From Stygiobacter sp. (GTDB lineage Bacteria > Pseudomonadota > Alphaproteobacteria > Rhodospirillales > Magnetospirillaceae), in assembly GCA_006218045.1 (NCBI GenBank), contig VBWB01000019.1:62001-126000 (forward strand): a DNA stretch of 64,000 nucleotides. The letters are read 5' to 3'. Positions 2,267 to 64,000 of this stretch are shown here, one piece after another. The number at the start of each line of letters is the position of its first letter. Position 1 is the first letter of the stretch. A program made the position numbers and the translations under genes. Under the pieces are notes generated by a model that was given only the letters and a program-made list of their open reading frames with translations, searched no databases and was not told the DNA's origin.

Positions 2267-3186
2267 GCCGTACCGCTGAACATCTGTACTGGTTGAGCCG
2301 GTACATGGAGCGGGCCGAGAACATTGCCCGTTTCCTCGACGTCGCCAACCGCACCGCGCTATCGGCCAGCGGCGACCGCAACGCCTTCTGGCGTTCGGTG
2401 CTGTCCATCGCCGGCGGCGAGCGTGCCTTCAACGCCCGCTATGGCGAAGCCTCCGCCGTCAACGTGGTCAGCTTCACCGTGCTGGATTGCACCAACCCGT
2501 CCTCTATTTACGCGGCGCTCAGGGCGGCGCGTGAAAACGCCCATGCGGTGCGCTCGGTCATCCCCAACGAATTGTGGGAAGCCATGAACGCCACCTGGCT
2601 GGAGGTCAAGTCCATGGACGGCCCCCGCCTGCGCGAACAAGGCCTGATCGCCTTTTGCGAATGGGTGCGCGAACGCTCGCACCTGTTCCGCGGCATTGTC
2701 GATGGCGTCATGCTGCGGGACGAGCCCTATCACTTCCTGCGCCTGGGCACGGCGTTGGAGCGGGCCGACAACACCGCACGGCTGATCGGCGTGCCCTTGG
2801 GCGGCTTCTCGCCCAGCGGCGCCGGTTCCGATCCGTTCGGCCATGTGCATTGGGCGGTGGTGCTGCGCTCGGTCAGCGCGCTCAAGGCCTATCGCACCGT
2901 CTATCGCGACGAGCCCAAGCAGACCCATGCGCTCGACATGCTGATCCTGCGCGACGACATGCCGCGCTCGCTGCAATCGTGCCTGGGCTTCGCCTTGAAA
3001 TCGCTGGAGGCGCTGGGGCCGGACCTGGAATGCACCCGTATGACCGGGGCGTTGCAGGCCCGCCTGCACTGGAGCAAGCTGGATGAGTTGCTGGATAAGG
3101 GCCTGACCGCCTTTATCAGCGATTTCATCACCGCCAATAACCACCTCAGTGCACGACTGCACGAAGACTTCTTGATGTCGGCCTAG
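2260..3186 (+). CDS. Alpha-E domain-containing protein
   Basis: A 308-residue, largely helical alpha-E protein. The N-terminus (MLSRTAEHLYWLSRYMERAENIARFLD) is the family hallmark, and a related RLGTALERADNTARL segment recurs near residue 165. It starts inside the end of the ATP-grasp gene (ATG at 2260, upstream stop at 2264-2266). Known genomic association is with circularly permuted ATP-grasp, transglutaminase-like and Anbu proteins, a set suspected of handling a peptide or protein tag; no enzymatic activity has been settled for the alpha-E fold. No transglutaminase-like gene follows here: the next gene is Anbu, after 133 noncoding bases. Confidence 0.87.
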   Translation: MLSRTAEHLYWLSRYMERAENIARFLDVANRTALSASGDRNAFWRSVLSIAGGERAFNARYGEASAVNVVSFTVLDCTNPSSIYAALRAARENAHAVRSVIPNELWEAMNATWLEVKSMDGPRLREQGLIAFCEWVRERSHLFRGIVDGVMLRDEPYHFLRLGTALERADNTARLIGVPLGGFSPSGAGSDPFGHVHWAVVLRSVSALKAYRTVYRDEPKQTHALDMLILRDDMPRSLQSCLGFALKSLEALGPDLECTRMTGALQARLHWSKLDELLDKGLTAFISDFITANNHLSARLHEDFLMSA

Positions 3187-3267
3187 AGCATTTTCACGCG
3201 AAACGTGGACATGCGATAAGCCCGCGCGGCGCCTGAGCGGCCCGTCACGGGCCATTTTTGGAATCTA

Positions 3268-3297
3268 GACCAGTTTCCGCTTTAGCTGAAACTGGTC
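3268..3297. repeat. Perfect 10-bp inverted repeat between alpha-E and Anbu genes
   Basis: GACCAGTTTC at 3268-3277 is the exact reverse complement of GAAACTGGTC at 3288-3297, with a 10-base loop. It sits 22 bases before the Anbu start, in a 133-base gap that also begins with a sequence (GAGCATTTTCACGCGAAACG at 3187-3206) resembling one arm of intergenic palindromes common in alphaproteobacteria. There is no T-run after it, so attenuation, mRNA stabilisation or a decayed repeat are all possible. Confidence 0.55.
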
Positions 3298-3319
3298 CAA
3301 GCGCCGCAGGGGAAGAGTA

Positions 3320-8599: not shown

Positions 8600-9886
8600 A
8601 TGAACATAATCGACCGCCGCCTGAACCCGAAAGGCAAAAGCTTGGCCAACCGCCAGCGCTTTTTGCGCCGCGCCCGCGAGCAGATCAGGAAGGCGGTGCG
8701 CGAGGCGTCCAGCGGGCGCTCCATCACCGATATCGACGGCGGCGAGGGAATTTCCATCCCCATGGACGATCTGCGCGAACCCGGCTTCCGCCGGGCGGCG
8801 GAAGGCGGCATCCGCGATTACGTCGTCCCCGGCAACAAGGAGTTCATTGCCGGCGACACCATCGCCAAGCCGCCCAAGCAGGCCGGCGGGGCAGGGGGAG
8901 CGGAAGGATCACCCGATGGCGGCGGCGAGGATGCCTTTCATTTCGTCCTGTCGCGCGACGAGTTCCTCGACCTGTTCCTGGAAGACCTGGAACTGCCGGA
9001 CATGGACAAGAAGAATCTGCAAAAGTCCGAGCAGATGGCGTTTTCCCGCGCCGGTCTGTCGGTCACCGGCTCGCCGTCCAACCTCAACCTTGTGCGCACC
9101 ATGCGCAACTCACTCAGCCGGCGCATCGCGCTCAAGCGACCCAAGCCCGCCGAAATGGCCGAGTTGCAGGCCGCTATCGCCGAACTCGAGGAAAACGGCG
9201 ACAACCCGGAATTGCTGTCGGAACTGCGCCTCGAGTTGGAGGCGCAACTGACCAAATCGCGGCGGGTGCCCTATATCGACCCGGTGGATGTGCGCTACAA
9301 TCGCTTCCAGGCCACGCCCAAGCCCATTTCCCAGGCGGTGATGTTCTGCCTGATGGACGTGTCGGGGTCGATGACCGAGCACATGAAGGATTTGGCCAAG
9401 CGCTTCTACATGCTGCTTTATCTGTTCCTCAATCGACGCTATGCCCATGTGGACATCGTCTTCATCCGCCACACCCACGAAGCCAAGGAGGTGGACGAGC
9501 AGACCTTCTTCTATTCCACCGAAACCGGCGGCACCGTGGTGTCCACCGCCCTGGTCGAGATGGCCCGGATCGTCAAGGCCCGCTATTCGCCCCATGACTG
9601 GAACATCTACGCCGCCCAGGCCTCGGACGGCGATAATACCAATTCCGACAATGGCACTACCATCGGGCTGTTGACCTCCGCCATCCTGCCCTTGTGTCAG
9701 TACTTCGCCTATATCGAAGTGGGCGCCGAGTACAAGGACTGGCTGGGCCGCGAAACCGATCTGTGGCGCACCTATAAAAGTGTCGCCGCCCCTAACATGG
9801 CCATGCGCAAGGTGCGCAACCGCGCCCAGATCTTCCCGGTGTTCCGCGAATTGTTCAGCCGGGAGAAAAGCCATGCCCAGCCATGA
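8600..9886 (+). CDS. YeaH/YhbH family protein (DUF444)
   Basis: A 428-residue DUF444 protein, 37 bases after prkA. The N-terminus (NIIDRRLNPKGKSLANRQRFLRRAR) is typical of YeaH. A von Willebrand A-like domain begins near residue 245 with FCLMDVSGSMTEHMKDLA, whose DVSGS matches a MIDAS metal site (DxSxS, Asp about residue 253). A low-complexity Gly-rich linker lies near residues 95-112. Its stop overlaps the SpoVR start by 14 bases, indicating coupled translation. YeaH works with PrkA and SpoVR in starvation responses in other bacteria; its biochemical role is unresolved. Confidence 0.93.
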   Translation: MNIIDRRLNPKGKSLANRQRFLRRAREQIRKAVREASSGRSITDIDGGEGISIPMDDLREPGFRRAAEGGIRDYVVPGNKEFIAGDTIAKPPKQAGGAGGAEGSPDGGGEDAFHFVLSRDEFLDLFLEDLELPDMDKKNLQKSEQMAFSRAGLSVTGSPSNLNLVRTMRNSLSRRIALKRPKPAEMAELQAAIAELEENGDNPELLSELRLELEAQLTKSRRVPYIDPVDVRYNRFQATPKPISQAVMFCLMDVSGSMTEHMKDLAKRFYMLLYLFLNRRYAHVDIVFIRHTHEAKEVDEQTFFYSTETGGTVVSTALVEMARIVKARYSPHDWNIYAAQASDGDNTNSDNGTTIGLLTSAILPLCQYFAYIEVGAEYKDWLGRETDLWRTYKSVAAPNMAMRKVRNRAQIFPVFRELFSREKSHAQP

Positions 9887-11399
9887 CGGTCTGCTGTTCA
9901 CCGGCGCCGACTGGAACTTCGACAAGCTCCAGCGCACCCACGACGCCATCGCCCGCATCGCCCATGACGAATTGGGGCTGGACACCTATCCCAACCAGAT
10001 CGAGGTGATCACCGCCGAGCAGATGCTGGATGCCTATTCCTCCATCGGCATGCCGTTGATGTACAAGCATTGGTCGTTCGGCAAGCATTTCGCCGCCGAC
10101 GAAAGCCTGTACCGCAAGGGCATGCGCGGTCTGGCCTATGAAATCGTCATCAATTCCAGCCCGTGCATATCCTATGTCATGGAGGAAAACTCCATGGCCA
10201 TGCAGACCCTGGTGGTCGCCCATGCCGCCTTCGGCCACAACCATTTCTTCAAGAACAACGCCCTGTTCCGGCAATGGACCGACGCCAAGGGCATTCTGGA
10301 TTATCTGGAATTCGCCAAGGGCTACATCCAGCACGCCGAGGAGCGCCATGGGCAAAGGGCGGTGGAACGGGTGCTGGACGCGGCCCATGCGCTGATGAGC
10401 CACGGCGTGCACAAATATCCGCGCAAGCGCCCCTTCGATCTGGCCGAGGACAAGCGGCGCGAGAAAGAGCGGCAGGACTGGTTCCAGCAGAATTACAACG
10501 ATCTGTGGCGGACGCTGCCCAAGGGCGGCGCCACCCCCCCGGTGGACGAGGATCTGGCCGAACGCAAGCGCGCGCTAGGCCTGCCCGAGGAAAACATCCT
10601 GTATTTTCTGGAGAAATCGGCGCCGCTGCTGGCGCCGTGGCAGCGCGAGATTTTGCGCATCGTCCGCAACATCGCCCAGTATTTCTATCCGCAGAAGCAG
10701 ACCAAGGTGATGAACGAGGGCTGCGCCACCATGGTGCATTACACCATCGCCAACCGCCTGCACGAACAGGGCCGCATCGATGACGGCACGCTGATGGAGA
10801 TCTTGCACTCCCACACCAATGTGGTGTTCCAGCCCGGCTTCGACGACCCGCGCTATGCCGGCCTCAACCCCTATGCCCTGGGTTTCGCCATGATGCAGGA
10901 CATTGTCCGCATCTGTACCCAGCCCACCGCCGAGGATCGCGCCTGGTTCCCCGATTTCGCCGGCAACAACGATTCCTGGGCCACGCTTCGTCATGCCTGG
11001 GCCGATTACCGCGACGAAAGCTTCATCCTGCAATTCCTGTCGCCCCAGGTGATGCGCAAGCTCAGGCTGTTTCATCTGCACGACAAGGCCGAGGATGACG
11101 ACATGGTGGTCAAGGCCATCCATGACGAACGCGGCTACCGTCAGGTGCGCCAGACCCTGGCGCGCAGCTACGATATCGGCGCCCTGGAAGCGGACATCCA
11201 GGTGGCCGATGTCGACCTGAGCGGTGATCGCCGGCTGATCGTTCATCATCGGGTCGCCAACGGCATTCTGCTCGACCCGGCCCAGGCTGGTCATACCCTG
11301 CGCCATTTGGCCAATCTGTGGGGCTATAAAGTGCAATTGGTGGAAGTGGACGAAAACGGCGCCCCCTTGCACATCTGCGAGGACATGGAGCCGGTATGA
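9873..11399 (+). CDS. SpoVR family protein
   Basis: A 508-residue SpoVR/YcgB protein. Recognisable segments are PLMYKHWSFGKHFAADESLYRKGMRGLAYEIVINSSPCISYVMEENS (about residues 55-105), FGHNHFFKNN (about 120) and ILYFLEKSAPLLAPWQREILRIVRNIAQYFYPQKQTKVMNEGCA (about 240-285). The ATG at 9873, after GGGAGAAAAG, gives the expected family start; a longer frame upstream only reads through the end of the YeaH gene. Third gene of the prkA-yeaH-spoVR operon. In Bacillus SpoVR affects spore cortex formation; in non-sporulating proteobacteria it belongs to the stationary-phase stress set, so the name does not imply sporulation here. Confidence 0.94.
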   Translation: MPSHDGLLFTGADWNFDKLQRTHDAIARIAHDELGLDTYPNQIEVITAEQMLDAYSSIGMPLMYKHWSFGKHFAADESLYRKGMRGLAYEIVINSSPCISYVMEENSMAMQTLVVAHAAFGHNHFFKNNALFRQWTDAKGILDYLEFAKGYIQHAEERHGQRAVERVLDAAHALMSHGVHKYPRKRPFDLAEDKRREKERQDWFQQNYNDLWRTLPKGGATPPVDEDLAERKRALGLPEENILYFLEKSAPLLAPWQREILRIVRNIAQYFYPQKQTKVMNEGCATMVHYTIANRLHEQGRIDDGTLMEILHSHTNVVFQPGFDDPRYAGLNPYALGFAMMQDIVRICTQPTAEDRAWFPDFAGNNDSWATLRHAWADYRDESFILQFLSPQVMRKLRLFHLHDKAEDDDMVVKAIHDERGYRQVRQTLARSYDIGALEADIQVADVDLSGDRRLIVHHRVANGILLDPAQAGHTLRHLANLWGYKVQLVEVDENGAPLHICEDMEPV

Positions 11400-59630: not shown

Positions 59631-59669
59631 CCGATCCGCTTCATCGATTGCCCTACGCCAACGACAAAA

Positions 59670-59718: not shown

Positions 59719-60315
59719 TCAGTGCGCGGCGGCCACGTCGTCGGTGGCGGCGGCTTCCTTGCGTGCCTTGACCTTGGCGGCCAGGGCCTTGCCCTTCTCG
59801 AATTGCTGCTTGTAGTAAGCGCGCATGGCATCGGCGCTGAGATTGAAGATGTCGCCGCCGTTTTCGTAATGCTTGACGAAGACGCGACCGATGGCATAGG
59901 TGGCGGCACCGGCGATCACCGGCAGCGATACCATGCCCAGCATCCAGCCGACACCGGGGATCAGTTTGGTCAGGCTGACCGCCACGGCCATGCCGGCGCC
60001 ATAGCCGACGACGCCGCCGGCCAGCGAGGCGATGACGCTGCGGCCCAGGCTTTCCGAGAACGGCTTGCCGTACAGTTCCGACAGCTTCTGGATCATGCGC
60101 AGTTCGATGGCCACCACGGCGGCGATGTCGAACAGGGGCACCGGCACGATGCTGGCGGCCACGGCGGCAAGGACGTAATCCTTGATCATGTTTTCCGCCA
60201 CCAGATCACGCCCGACGGAATCCGGGGTCGGGACCACTGCCGCAGCGGCGGTCGAACTGTCCGCCGGGGCGGCGGTGGGGGCGGGAGTTTCGGAAGCAGC
60301 GGTTTGCGCGGCCAT
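59719..60315 (-). CDS. DUF697-domain membrane protein
   Basis: A 198-residue protein. After an Ala/Pro/Thr-rich stretch of about 35 residues, the DUF697 core appears: MIKDYVLAAVAASIVPVPLFDIAAVVAIELRMIQKLSELYGKPFSES, then two hydrophobic segments (about residues 95-120 and 125-150). In other proteins DUF697 is attached to Era/YcjF-type GTPases; here no GTPase domain is present. The end is a basic coiled stretch (KQQFEKGKALAAKVKARKEAAATDD). Start at 60315 is fixed by GGAGGA. Confidence 0.8.
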   Translation of the reverse strand: MAAQTAASETPAPTAAPADSSTAAAAVVPTPDSVGRDLVAENMIKDYVLAAVAASIVPVPLFDIAAVVAIELRMIQKLSELYGKPFSESLGRSVIASLAGGVVGYGAGMAVAVSLTKLIPGVGWMLGMVSLPVIAGAATYAIGRVFVKHYENGGDIFNLSADAMRAYYKQQFEKGKALAAKVKARKEAAATDDVAAAH

Positions 60316-60460
60316 GATGTTCCTCCGGTTGCGCCCCGCGTCCGACATGAAGCGCGAGGGAAGAGACGTCGGTGTCGACGAGTCGGGCTGAATCCCGCAG
60401 GTACCCTACTATTTGAGGCCATGGAATAAAAGTGCCGTTTTATACCACAGAGATATTTCC

Positions 60461-60531: not shown

Positions 60532-61524
60532 ATGGACAGGCCCGTGCCGCCGCTTCCCGTGATTTTCTGTTTTGCCGGCCAGGGCTCGCAATATTTCGGC
60601 ATGGCCGGTCAGTTGCTGGCCGAAAATGCCGTCTTCCGCCACTGGATGCAGGCGGGCGATGCCATCGTCGCCGCCCGCCACGGCTTTTCCGTCCTGGCCG
60701 AAATCCAAGGCGGCGGCAAGCGCGCCTCGCAGCCCTTCGACCGGCTGGAAGCCAGCCATCCGGCCATTTTCCTGGTGCAATACGCCTTGGCCAAGGTGTT
60801 GCAGGATCACGGCCTGCGCCCCCATATGCTGTTGGGGGTGTCGTTGGGCGAGATCGTCGCCCAGGCCATCGCCGGCATGATCAGCTTCGAGACGGCGCTG
60901 ACCCTGGTGGCCGACCAGCCGGCACTGTTCCGCCGCACCTGCCCGCCCGGCGGCATGGTGGCGGTGCTGGCCCCGGCTTCCCTGCACGCCGAAAACCCCG
61001 TGCTGGCGGCACGTAGCGAGGTGGCCGGCATCACCTCGCCCAACCATTTCATCCTGTCGGCCCGGGCCGAAGACCTGGACCGGATCGAGGCCGAATTACG
61101 CCGGTGCGAGGTGGTGTTCCAACGTCTGCCGGTGCCTTTCGCCTTTCATTCCCGCTTCATCGATGCCGCCCAAGCCGAATGCCTGGCCGCCACCGCCCCG
61201 CTGCGGCGCGAAAGCCCGTTCTGGCCGGTATGGTCGTGCTGTACCGCCGGGCCGACCGGGACGGCCATGCCCGATCTGATCTGGCGCATCGTTCGCCACC
61301 CCATGCGGGTGGCGCGCAGCGTGGAGATTCTCGAGCAACAAGGGGCCGTCTATGTGGACCTCAGCCCCTCGGGCACCTTGGTCACCGTTTTGCGGCAATG
61401 CCTGCAACCGGGGTCGCCATCCAAGCTCTTGAGCGTCTTGTCGCCGTTCGGCGGCGATGACCAGCGGTTGACCAAGACGGTGGAGACATTGCGCCGTCTG
61501 GCCGAGGCCGATGCTTTGCGCTAG
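60532..61524 (+). CDS. Malonyl-CoA/acyl-carrier-protein acyltransferase-type protein
   Basis: A 330-residue free-standing acyltransferase (AT) of the FabD/polyketide AT fold. VIFCFAGQGSQYFGMAGQLL is the GQGSQ oxyanion-hole motif (about residue 17), LLGVSLGEIVAQ the GxSxG nucleophile elbow with Val instead of the common His before Ser (about residue 99), and VPFAFHSRFID the catalytic His (about 203). Compared with FabD the loading-site residues look unlike a malonyl-specific enzyme, so the acyl group is unknown. It heads a plus-strand operon that includes an acyl carrier protein, its likely acceptor. Confidence 0.85.
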   Translation: MDRPVPPLPVIFCFAGQGSQYFGMAGQLLAENAVFRHWMQAGDAIVAARHGFSVLAEIQGGGKRASQPFDRLEASHPAIFLVQYALAKVLQDHGLRPHMLLGVSLGEIVAQAIAGMISFETALTLVADQPALFRRTCPPGGMVAVLAPASLHAENPVLAARSEVAGITSPNHFILSARAEDLDRIEAELRRCEVVFQRLPVPFAFHSRFIDAAQAECLAATAPLRRESPFWPVWSCCTAGPTGTAMPDLIWRIVRHPMRVARSVEILEQQGAVYVDLSPSGTLVTVLRQCLQPGSPSKLLSVLSPFGGDDQRLTKTVETLRRLAEADALR

Positions 61525-61552
61525 TCTGATGGCCTATCGGAGTGGGGGAACG

Positions 61553-62422
61553 ATGTTGCTTTGGACCTGGACCGGGATCCGCCACACCATTGCCGTCCTC
61601 GGCCTGTTGGTGCTGCCGCCCACCGCTGCCTGTGCCGCCGACCCCGCCACCGCCCCCGACATCGCCCGCATCATCGCCCGTGGCACCTTGGTGGTGGCCG
61701 CCTATAAATCCGACATGCCGCCGTTTTTCTATGTGGACGCGGCGGGCAAGCCGGGCGGCATCGACGTCGAACTGGCCACCGACATCGCCCAGCGCCTGGG
61801 CGTCAAGCTCAACTATGCCCGCATGGCCGATAATTTCGACGATCTGCCGCATCTGGTGGCCAGCCGCAAGGCCGATGTCGCCATCAGCTATCTCAGCCGC
61901 ACCTTGCGCCGGGCCGCGCTGGTCCGCTTCACCCAGCCTTACGCCCGGCTGCGCCAGACCCTGATGGTCAACCGCACCAAGACCGCGCCCTTGTTCCGTG
62001 GCGGCGAGCGGGTGGAAATGCTGAACGATGCCAGCGTCCAGATCGGCGTCGAGGACGGCAGTTCCTATGTGGATTTCGCCGCCGAGCGCCTGCCCCGCGC
62101 CCAGGTCAAGCCCTATCCCAGCAACGAGGACGCCATCGCCGCCCTGCTGGCCGGTCAACTGCATGCGGTCATGGTGGATGAGGGCTTTTCCTATTCGCTC
62201 ACCCGGGTCCAGGCCGGGGTGCCGCGCTATCGCGTCCGCGACGACTGGGCGCTTTACGTCAAGATCGTGCCCTTGACCGGCGCCCGCGACCCCATCGCCA
62301 TGGCGGTGCACCGCGACGATCCCAACTGGCTGGCCTGGCTGGATACCTATATCGCCGACCGCCAGGAAGACGGCAGCCTGGACCGCCTGCTCGACCGCCA
62401 TCTGGGGGGGCCGCGCAAGTGA
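61553..62422 (+). CDS. Periplasmic amino-acid-type solute-binding protein
   Basis: A 289-residue family 3 solute-binding protein. Signal peptide near residues 8-28 (TIAVLGLLVLPPTAACAAD), then IIARGTLVVAAYKSDMPPFFYVDAAGKPGGIDVELATDIAQRLGVKLNY, the classic first strand and binding loop. GVEDGSSYVDFA is the second-lobe entry. Start at 61553 is set by GGGGAACG; two earlier in-frame ATGs lack ribosome sites. It overlaps the symporter by four bases although such proteins normally serve ABC or TRAP systems. Confidence 0.85.
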   Translation: MLLWTWTGIRHTIAVLGLLVLPPTAACAADPATAPDIARIIARGTLVVAAYKSDMPPFFYVDAAGKPGGIDVELATDIAQRLGVKLNYARMADNFDDLPHLVASRKADVAISYLSRTLRRAALVRFTQPYARLRQTLMVNRTKTAPLFRGGERVEMLNDASVQIGVEDGSSYVDFAAERLPRAQVKPYPSNEDAIAALLAGQLHAVMVDEGFSYSLTRVQAGVPRYRVRDDWALYVKIVPLTGARDPIAMAVHRDDPNWLAWLDTYIADRQEDGSLDRLLDRHLGGPRK

Positions 62423-63663
62423 GCCGGCTGAGCGCGCACCTGTCCAGCCCGTGGGCGGTGGTGGCCGGCCTGGTGGCCGGCGGCATGCTGGGGGCGACAC
62501 TGCCCGAGGCCGGCACGGCATTGGAGCCGGTCGGCCAGCTTTACCTGCAACTCATGCAGATGTGCGTGCTGCCCATCATCATCAGCGCCGTCACCGCCAG
62601 CATCGCCCGGCTGATCCTGGGCGACAGCGGCGCGGCGCTGCCGCGTCTGGCCCTGGTCTTCCTGGCCGGACTGGCCGCCGCCGCCGCCATCGCCCTGGCC
62701 GCCGGGCTGGTGTTTCAGCCGGGGATCGGGCTGGGCCAGGACCAACGCGTCTTTCTCGCCAACGAGATATTGCAGCAAGACGCCGCCGCCAGCGGCCAGC
62801 CGGCGCCCAGCCTGTGGCTGCTGGCGCAGATGGTGATCCCGGCCAACGTCATCCGCGCCGCCGCCGAAGGCCACATGCTGGCGCTGTTGCTGTTTTCGCT
62901 GTTGCTGGGCATGGGCCTGGGCAAGCTGGGGGGCGAACAAAGCCTGTTCGCCGTCGGTGTGCTCGATGCCTTCTACAACGCCCTGGTCAAGGTGATGGGC
63001 TGGATCCTGCTGGGCCTGCCCTTCGGTCTGTTCGCGCTGATGGCCGCCCACACCGCCCAGGGCGGCATCCACATGTTCCTGATGCTGGGCAAGCTGGTCG
63101 CCACCTTGTACGGCGTCGCCGTGCTGGTGATCGCGGCGTTGACCCTTTTGATCGCCCGGCGCACCGGGCTTGGGCCGTTGGCCGTCCTCTCGCTGGTGCG
63201 TCAGCCGCTGTTCACCGCCTTCGGCACCGGCTCCAGCATCGCCACCTTGCCGGCGGCGCTCAGGGTGGCGGAAACCGGCCTGGGCCTCAGCCGCCAGACC
63301 ACCCAGATGGTGCTGCCCCTGGGGGTCAGCCTGTATCCCCTGGGCAACGTCGTCCATGTGGTGATCAGCAGCCTGTTCGTGCTGCAACTCTACGGCCTGC
63401 CCATCGGCTTGCAGGCCGGGCTGGTGGTGACCATCGGCGGCATCCTGGTCGCCTGCGCCATGTCGGGGGCGCCGGGCGTGGCCTCGATGGCCTTGCTGGG
63501 CATGCTGCTGGCCCCCTTCGGCGTGCCGGTGGAGGTGGCCATCGTCCTTCTGGTGGCACTCGATCCTGTACTGGACCCGGTGCTGACCGTGGTCAACGTC
63601 TACGGCAACATGGGGGCTGCCGCGCTGATGGAGCCCCAGCAAAAGGAAGCGCCTCATGGATAA
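62419..63663 (+). CDS. Dicarboxylate/amino acid:cation symporter (DAACS)
   Basis: A 414-residue membrane carrier of the glutamate/dicarboxylate (GltP/GltPh) family. TAFGTGSSIATLPAAL near residue 268 corresponds to the serine-rich tip of HP1, VSLYPLGNVVHVV near 300 to TM7, GAPGVASMALLG near 353 to HP2 and DPVLDPVLTVVNVYGNMGAA near 378 to the TM8 substrate site (the usual NVxGD reads NVYGN). About eight helices. GTG start overlaps the binding-protein stop; its own stop overlaps the ACP gene by eight bases. Confidence 0.9.
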   Translation: MSRLSAHLSSPWAVVAGLVAGGMLGATLPEAGTALEPVGQLYLQLMQMCVLPIIISAVTASIARLILGDSGAALPRLALVFLAGLAAAAAIALAAGLVFQPGIGLGQDQRVFLANEILQQDAAASGQPAPSLWLLAQMVIPANVIRAAAEGHMLALLLFSLLLGMGLGKLGGEQSLFAVGVLDAFYNALVKVMGWILLGLPFGLFALMAAHTAQGGIHMFLMLGKLVATLYGVAVLVIAALTLLIARRTGLGPLAVLSLVRQPLFTAFGTGSSIATLPAALRVAETGLGLSRQTTQMVLPLGVSLYPLGNVVHVVISSLFVLQLYGLPIGLQAGLVVTIGGILVACAMSGAPGVASMALLGMLLAPFGVPVEVAIVLLVALDPVLDPVLTVVNVYGNMGAAALMEPQQKEAPHG

Positions 63664-63901
63664 GATCCGCGCCTTCATCGAGGAACAGTTCCTGGTGGAA
63701 TTCGACGACGACGACTTCCCCGAGGACAGCAACCTGTTCAAGGAAGGGGTGATGGATTCCTTCGGCTATGTGCAATTGTGCCGCTTTCTCGAACGCGAAT
63801 TCGCCATCACCTTCACCGAGGCCGAGATGACCGGCAACGTCCTGGTCAGCCTGACCCAGATCCGCGACACGGTGGCGGCCAAGCTCAAGCGGAACGGCTA
63901 G
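63656..63901 (+). CDS. Acyl carrier protein
   Basis: An 81-residue carrier protein. The phosphopantetheine site is the Ser in FKEGVMDSFGYVQL (about residue 35; D-S-x-x context as in D-alanyl or dedicated ACPs rather than FabF-cycle AcpP). A very acidic patch (EFDDDDFPED) precedes it. The C-terminus is normal. It is nested between a symporter and an asparagine synthetase, pointing to a dedicated biosynthetic or ligase role rather than general fatty-acid synthesis. Confidence 0.9.
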   Translation: MDKIRAFIEEQFLVEFDDDDFPEDSNLFKEGVMDSFGYVQLCRFLEREFAITFTEAEMTGNVLVSLTQIRDTVAAKLKRNG

Positions 63902-63904
63902 GCC

Positions 63905-64000
63905 ATGTGCGGCATCGCCGGCCTGATCCACACCGACGTGGCGTCGCAGGATTTGCCCGACATCATCGCCGGCATGCTCGACCGCATCAGCCATCGCGGT
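63905..64000 (+). CDS. Asparagine synthase-type glutamine amidotransferase, 5' end only
   Basis: The first 32 codons are visible before the window ends: MCGIAGLIHTDV with Cys2 as glutaminase nucleophile and HRG at the edge, the class II amidotransferase start of AsnB-like enzymes. It begins three bases after the ACP stop. By position it should act on an ACP-linked or free substrate in the same pathway. Confidence 0.85.
   Translation, partial: MCGIAGLIHTDVASQDLPDIIAGMLDRISHRG

Follow-up and report, generated by a model that had tools for sequence, protein, structure and literature searches.

Results and Discussion

At the right end of the window, a 64,000-nucleotide stretch of a Stygiobacter sp. 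genome (contig C21:62001-126000; the genome, G000, comprises 4.33 Mb in 62 contigs), five genes lie head to tail on the forward strand. The first (60532..61524) encodes a protein of acyltransferase (AT) fold matching PF00698 (4e-36), and the second (61511..62422) a solute-binding protein (SBP) of the SBP_bac_3 family (PF00497, 2.5e-26) that keeps amino-acid-type ligand residues. Its partner (62419..63663) encodes a membrane protein of the SDF family (PF00375, 1e-71), found divergent by alignment to solved SDF proteins, motif and tree. The fourth gene (63656..63901) specifies a discrete, SbnK-like acyl carrier protein (ACP; PF00550, 1e-4), conserved beside AsnB and retaining the Ser of its DSFG motif, and the fifth (63905..64000, the first 32 codons) an SbnJ-like, AsnB-like amidotransferase with PF00733 and GATase domains and intact Cys2 and SGGIDS. 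This operon very probably belongs to a sesbanimide-type (glutarimide) trans-AT polyketide synthase (PKS) cluster, of whose accessory half it is the left end, and it contains an SBP-SDF gene pair that is the novel part of the locus, the biosynthetic genes being of known type.

Pfam matches confirmed in place all five genes of a preliminary description of this DNA, and the tight packing of four of them was likewise upheld: counted from the first start codon, the genes overlap by 14, 4 and 8 bases and are then separated by a 3-base gap. The first overlap is uncertain, since the SBP may start at the ATG at 61511, 61529 or 61553, and it may thus instead be a short gap. The complete AsnB has 657 residues (L002:6905-8878, where L002 is the stretch past the window edge and window positions equal L002 positions plus 57000) and ends at the equivalent of window position 65878. 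The five-gene order is kept in the relative G007 with protein identities of 92.7-97.4% and dN/dS of 0.09-0.19; thus, the genes are no chance run of reading frames.

As anticipated in the preliminary description, further pathway enzymes are encoded beyond the edge. Convergent with AsnB, a four-gene beta-branching cassette on the minus strand consists of ECH (L002:8909-9664), KS (L002:9661-10884) with Ser replacing the active Cys (GAASAS), ACP (L002:10871-11128) and HMG-CoA synthase (HMGS; L002:11131-12387) with ACYSG and HTPF kept, and is followed on the same strand by the tailoring enzymes P450 (L002:12387-13649) and FkbM methyltransferase (L002:13671-14510) and then, on the plus strand, by a metallophosphoesterase gene. 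The sbn accessory genes, namely AsnB and ACP, the cassette, P450 and FkbM, are all present. The adjoining cassette and tailoring genes bear out the earlier view of ACP and AsnB as the core of a small-molecule pathway, and such a set needs a PKS.

A ketosynthase search of the genome revealed two giant open frames on contig C29 that together hold 11 PKS ketosynthase domains; in these frames Pfam recognises KS, KR, DH, methyltransferase, ECH and carrier domains. The synthases, SbnO and SbnQ, with a flavin monooxygenase (BVMO) gene between them and a terminal non-ribosomal peptide synthetase module of condensation, AMP-binding, carrier and thioesterase domains (C-A-T-TE), occupy C29:236846-278294, and the genes of an AT protein (SbnN) and two ABC transporter genes lie upstream. 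In the sesbanimide R cluster of M. gryphiswaldense MSR-1, described in 2021, sbnN, O, P and Q are flanked by sbnA, D, E, F-I, J and K (PMC8262917), and the same sbnN-O-P-Q, SbnA hydrolase, AsnB-ACP, cassette, P450 and FkbM recur in G000. Unlike the MSR-1 cluster, the G000 set stands in two pieces on different contigs and has an insert of about 40 residues in the A domain of SbnQ. An ACP and an AsnB homologue likewise provide the malonamyl starter in the glutarimide triads GdsBCD (gladiostatin), SmdFGH and ChxBCD (PMC7756379); unlike in those triads, the AT-fold gene of the operon reads as that of a hydrolase and the loading AT would be encoded on another contig. The earlier remark that no named system with this exact set is known does not hold, the genes being the known glutarimide/sesbanimide accessory set (PMC8262917, PMC7756379). 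As a set, the biosynthetic genes add a new member to a known cluster type, in an unusual split form. Catalytic residues are as expected in the KS (Cys to Ser), HMGS (ACYSG/HTPF) and AsnB (Cys2 and SGGIDS), and dN/dS against G007 of 0.05-0.19 in 15 genes of both halves gives no sign of decay in either.

The AT-fold protein, previously taken for the acyltransferase of the operon's ACP, carries the residues of an acyl hydrolase instead. Among solved chains it matches PksD best, over the whole domain (215 bits; 110 bits for the next chain). It has Gln in the column of the malonyl-binding Arg117 and the active-site motif GVSL (GVSLGE), and so departs at both sites from malonyl-CoA:ACP acyltransferases (Arg117, GHSxGE), whereas SbnN on C29 has Arg and GHSV. 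Gln occupies this column in nine of ten aligned SbnA rows and Ser in the remaining one (G057), the alignment omitting G008, G011 and L034, for which the best match was SbnN itself. Acyl hydrolases are diagnosed by absence of the malonyl-binding Arg, usually with Gln or His instead, and frequently contain G(A/S/V)SL; PksD itself has Gln for Arg and GxSL (PMC11775670). With its AT fold, replaced Arg117 and GVSL, the window protein matches the acyl hydrolases of trans-AT PKSs and reads as an SbnA-like member, an activity predicted from the sequence comparison with PksD. The true AT that should load the discrete ACP would be SbnN; in glutarimide pathways a true AT is paired with ACP and AsnB (PMC7756379). 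Such AT-ACP-AsnB triads, which make malonamyl starters (PMC7756379), together with the tight gene packing, would also suit a self-contained pathway in which the AT malonylates the ACP, AsnB amidates, and the symporter imports an amino acid or dicarboxylate as acceptor for acylation. Nevertheless, the AT has no malonyl-binding Arg, the genome holds the full sbn gene set and the SDF protein lacks the residues for sodium and an acidic side chain (see below), and we regard a self-contained pathway as extremely improbable.

For the sesbanimide-type pathway we propose, from the sequence and published schemes, that SbnN would malonylate the discrete ACP, that AsnB would convert malonyl-ACP to malonamyl-ACP using glutamine, and that the first SbnO modules would build the glutarimide. 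The window SbnA would clear stalled or mis-primed acyl-ACPs by hydrolysis, the convergent ECH-KS-ACP-HMGS genes would install the exomethylene branch, and oxidation and O-methylation would be carried out by P450 and FkbM, respectively.

The sbn genes of G000 do not form one contiguous cluster but an accessory block (C21:121666-134427) and the synthases on C29; contiguity is unnecessary for cluster function. G007, a single contig of 4,365,796 bases, has the whole cluster in one piece. One stretch of it is matched by 20 of 25 query proteins with at least 90% identity and by three more (ABC2, SbnO N-terminus, SbnQ C-terminus) in place, of which only the positions are usable, while the two neighbours pal and a LuxR-type regulator match G007 weakly (28% and 32%). 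According to BLASTN, C29:234420-299714 corresponds to G007 from 1724816 down to 1660001 (where the compared G007 stretch ends) and C21:121666-134427 to G007 1724863-1737583. This two-piece collinearity is exact, and the cut maps to a stretch of about 46 bases in the G007 gap between a Peripla_BP_6 gene and that of a DUF697 protein (window 59719..60348, minus strand, PF05128). The latter marks the left end of the displaced block, which starts near 59666, and its 94.7% identical orthologue adjoins SbnA in G007. If the contigs are correct, the two halves are at least about 140 kb apart in G000. The distance from BVMO to AsnB is 22-33 kb, on the same contig, in G008, G011, G046 and G057; the joined cluster looks ancestral.

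A simple two-breakpoint inversion was rejected as the cause of the split: the DNA right of the G007 cluster equals C21:29434-31769, reversed, and the DNA beside the C29 half (pal region) equals G007 810146-812258, and thus more than one rearrangement is needed. Among the stretches compared, the inner junctions showed no common repeat. That several rearrangements would be required, in a draft of 62 contigs, invites the explanation that misassembly produced the split and that the cluster is contiguous as in G007. We consider this improbable, as each of the three junctions is well within a long contig (C21 of 155.8 kb, C29 of 401 kb), the one 28-base repeat found lies elsewhere, and the genome G005 shows an independent rearrangement. 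In that genome (G005:C11:231245-334729, L127-L132), ACP-AsnB is located about 46 kb beyond the beta-branching cassette, and none of SbnA, the SBP and the SDF protein was found in the stretch.

Four points weigh against an intact sesbanimide-type pathway split in two. The split rests on a 62-contig draft assembly, the dN/dS values are not datable to after the split, and the product is predicted from the genes. In addition, the SbnQ insert may leave the pathway altered or dead at that step. It is in-frame, palindromic and about 119 bases (about 40 residues) long (C29:238334-238453, equal to L022:16334-16453), and is placed just before YRTGDL, where G007 lacks it. With a 91% copy at window 3183-3301, the insert resembles a small mobile element of palindromic type, and it may influence the loading of arginine.

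Several further features were observed around the two halves. Right beside the displaced block, a 28-base direct repeat lies at C21:134639-134666 and 147149-147176 (L002/L003), with a virion-like frame between the copies and two phage-type integrases nearby (L003:7825-8970 and 9335-10558). The right copy ends in a tRNA-like T arm with a weak tmRNA match below the Rfam cut-off, and ARAGORN found no tRNA genes in L002, L003 and L022. This region is an integration hotspot next to the block. The genes of an SPFH/Band_7 protein (C29:235931-236797) and of the DUF697 protein, located on different contigs in G000, are near each other in G007 and in the sbn stretches L028, L033 and L034; a self-protection or membrane role of these proteins is possible. 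Furthermore, a large sensor-type frame of about 1140 residues is immediately preceded by another SBP_bac_3 gene (PF00497) at C29:281862-286257 (L024/L025), upstream of the synthase transporters, and this arrangement is also found in G007.

A search of genome contigs with AsnB gave at least 80 loci and, among the matches listed, ten full-length relatives with at least 55% identity, belonging to two Roseibium, Stappia, Burkholderia, Oceaniovalibus, Azorhizobium, Cognatishimia, Magnetospirillum fulvum and two metagenome-assembled genomes. The cassette stands beside ACP-AsnB in eight of them and was not seen in the stretch for the other two (L033, L035). Among 61 relatives, 12 including G000 match AsnB at 1e-100; G000 apart, six of them have at least 65% identity. 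The SBP-SDF pair is present in four of 17 sbn stretches (G000, G007, G008, G011), always directly before ACP-AsnB, and was not found in the other 13, the stretches not all being whole clusters. The linkage of transporter and ACP-AsnB genes suggested earlier therefore holds for G007, G008 and G011 and was not found in most of these sbn stretches.

The window SDF protein is the sole PF00375 match in G000. Like the SDF (DAACS) symporters of GltPh/GltP type, it shows a whole-length Pfam SDF match. In GltPh, sodium is bound by Asn310, Asp312 and Asp405, the side-chain carboxyl of the substrate by Thr314 and Arg397, its amino group by Asp394 and its alpha-carboxyl by Asn401 (PMC4900748). Aligned to solved aspartate transporters, the window protein keeps the Asp394 and Asn401 positions, but has YPLGN for NMDGT, Leu for Arg397 and Asn for Asp405. 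Thus, the protein has kept the residues that would hold an amino-acid backbone and lost those that bind sodium and an acidic side chain, which makes ordinary Na+/dicarboxylate import by it unlikely and weighs against the import of a dicarboxylate suggested initially. The three marks of Na+-coupled symporters (NMDGT, Arg397, Asp405) are all missing, and the protein stays below the NCBIfam GltP cut-off (128 against 638 bits). Asp is found in the 405 column of none of 11 aligned branch rows (by eye), some of which keep the Arg. In a tree of 48 rows, 24 SDF proteins paired with an SBP and 24 canonical ones fall on opposite sides of one branch (100/100), with L197 not placeable. The paired rows were largely recruited with a profile of the branch, which favours a clean split but is blind to neighbouring genes.

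Neighbouring genes were examined at SDF loci found by searches with SDF alone, for which the queries were the window protein in its class (385 genomes), PF00375 in 58 genomes, and an 11-sequence SDF profile in 398 genomes of the phylum and 369 genomes of the class of G738. At most the best four candidates per genome were scored in the class and profile searches, and member counts are lower bounds. Outside the window's genus, 23 divergent loci were obtained (seven from the class, ten from the phylum, five new ones from the class of G738 and one with PF00375). Two were set aside, namely G595, where the contig begins in the gene, and a second SDF of G738 that is the tandem partner of the first. 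Each of the 21 judged loci has an SBP gene upstream of, and on the same strand as, the SDF gene (7/7, 8/8, 5/5 and 1/1), with a dCache-cyclase gene between the two in four (L216-L219), so that the gene adjacency expected of a binding-protein-dependent secondary transporter is seen there as in the window. The Pfam SBP_bac_3 cut-off is passed by 15 of these SBPs and missed in G484 (20.6 against 26.4 bits); the other five (L214, L220a, L227, L231, L211) rest on a home-made model, with L214 in its training set. The SDF of G452 lies in two frames and is possibly broken. A start codon is possible within 50 bases of the SBP stop in 15 of 16 pairs computed.

With the same model and the same short upstream flank, an SBP was detected at 15 of 21 branch loci and at none of 32 canonical SDFs; the search that found the SBPs of the other six branch loci, with Pfam or in longer stretches, was wider than that of the controls. 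The controls were 34 by pattern, from which L158 (NPAGS) and L161 (NRHGS) were moved to the divergent branch. The 32 include ten NMSGN proteins, of which eight come from one genus and so are not independent; about 700 upstream bases are visible in L187, and L184, re-read, is canonical without an SBP. In L172 and L173 a weak match to the SBP model lies downstream on the other strand. No SBP match was seen in the flank of six NMDGT-less SDFs outside the branch (L194, L198-L201, L207; weak or no match to the branch model), and thus SBP pairing tracks the branch and not the loss of NMDGT as such. The aligned SBPs keep T-x-x-R in 22 of 24 and the second-lobe Asp in 21 of 24, which in LAO-type proteins bind the alpha-carboxyl and alpha-amino groups. 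Asp/Glu-racemase genes stand beside the pair in L213, L214, L216 and L231, three of them confirmed by Pfam and that of L214 by eye. ABC-ATPase-like frames, recognised by motif, occur in three of 20 stretches, on the opposite strand in L215 and L216 and on the same strand about 1.8 kb beyond the SDF in L225.

The genomic pairing of SBP with SDF is strong, and several functions are compatible with it. The most likely, at about even odds, is that the pair handles an alpha-amino acid by binding-protein-dependent transport, with the SBP passing its ligand to the SDF elevator; uptake requiring the SBP is putative, and supply of glutamine for AsnB or of arginine for SbnQ as the role of the pair in the operon is a guess. 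The main rival is that the pair is a receptor, in which an amino acid sensed by the SBP would cause the SDF protein, devoid of its sodium site, to relay or gate the signal. The lost sodium motif fits this, as do the dCache-cyclase genes, which separate SBP from SDF in L216-L219 and lie close to the pair in L213, L214 and L220. Yet neither the other stretches nor the Magnetospirillum operon showed a cyclase beside the pair, and the amino-acid backbone residues are kept in the window SDF; we hold a receptor to be possible but distinctly the less probable function. Export of sesbanimide or protection of the producer is suggested by the position of the pair in the operon and by the 2021 paper, which groups its transport ORFs as putative exporters (PMC8262917). 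This we judge unlikely, since a periplasmic amino-acid-binding protein is ill-suited to export, the pair also occurs at loci without a recognised sbn gene (seven loci examined) and was not found in 13 of the 17 sbn stretches noted above, and SbnN is preceded by two ABC transporter genes.

For transport, the closest known parallel is TAXI-GltS, an SBP-dependent secondary transporter reported as new in 2025; until then, TRAP and TTT were the only secondary transporters known to use soluble binding proteins (PMC12344293). There too, the SBP gene adjoins, and in places overlaps, a gene of an elevator-type glutamate-transporter family. Unlike TAXI-GltS, the pair combines SBP_bac_3 and not TAXI with SDF and not GltS, and the sodium motif is lost in the window SDF. 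No description of an SBP-SDF pair was recognised among the open-access papers listed in searches for one.

Conclusions

The starter, branching and tailoring genes of this sesbanimide-type cluster lie away from the synthases, an arrangement that cluster-based genome mining would easily miss, each half being orphan-like. Concerning the SBP-SDF pair, there is about one chance in two that it represents an undescribed, rare but scattered class of SBP-dependent elevator transporters, in which an SDF branch, having lost its sodium motif, cooperates with a dedicated periplasmic amino-acid SBP; this class would be linked in some lineages to dCache nucleotidyl cyclase and Asp/Glu racemase, and would have been recruited by some Magnetospirillum into the sesbanimide operon, tightly joined to the starter-unit genes. 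Should G007 be M. gryphiswaldense MSR-1, as its cluster suggests, a laboratory strain open to genetic work would carry one member. The authors of the TAXI-GltS study suggested that the elevator mechanism may permit the use of SBPs and that further classes would allow a test (PMC12344293). An SBP-paired SDF branch, if true, would make this question directly testable, because SDF proteins are model elevators.

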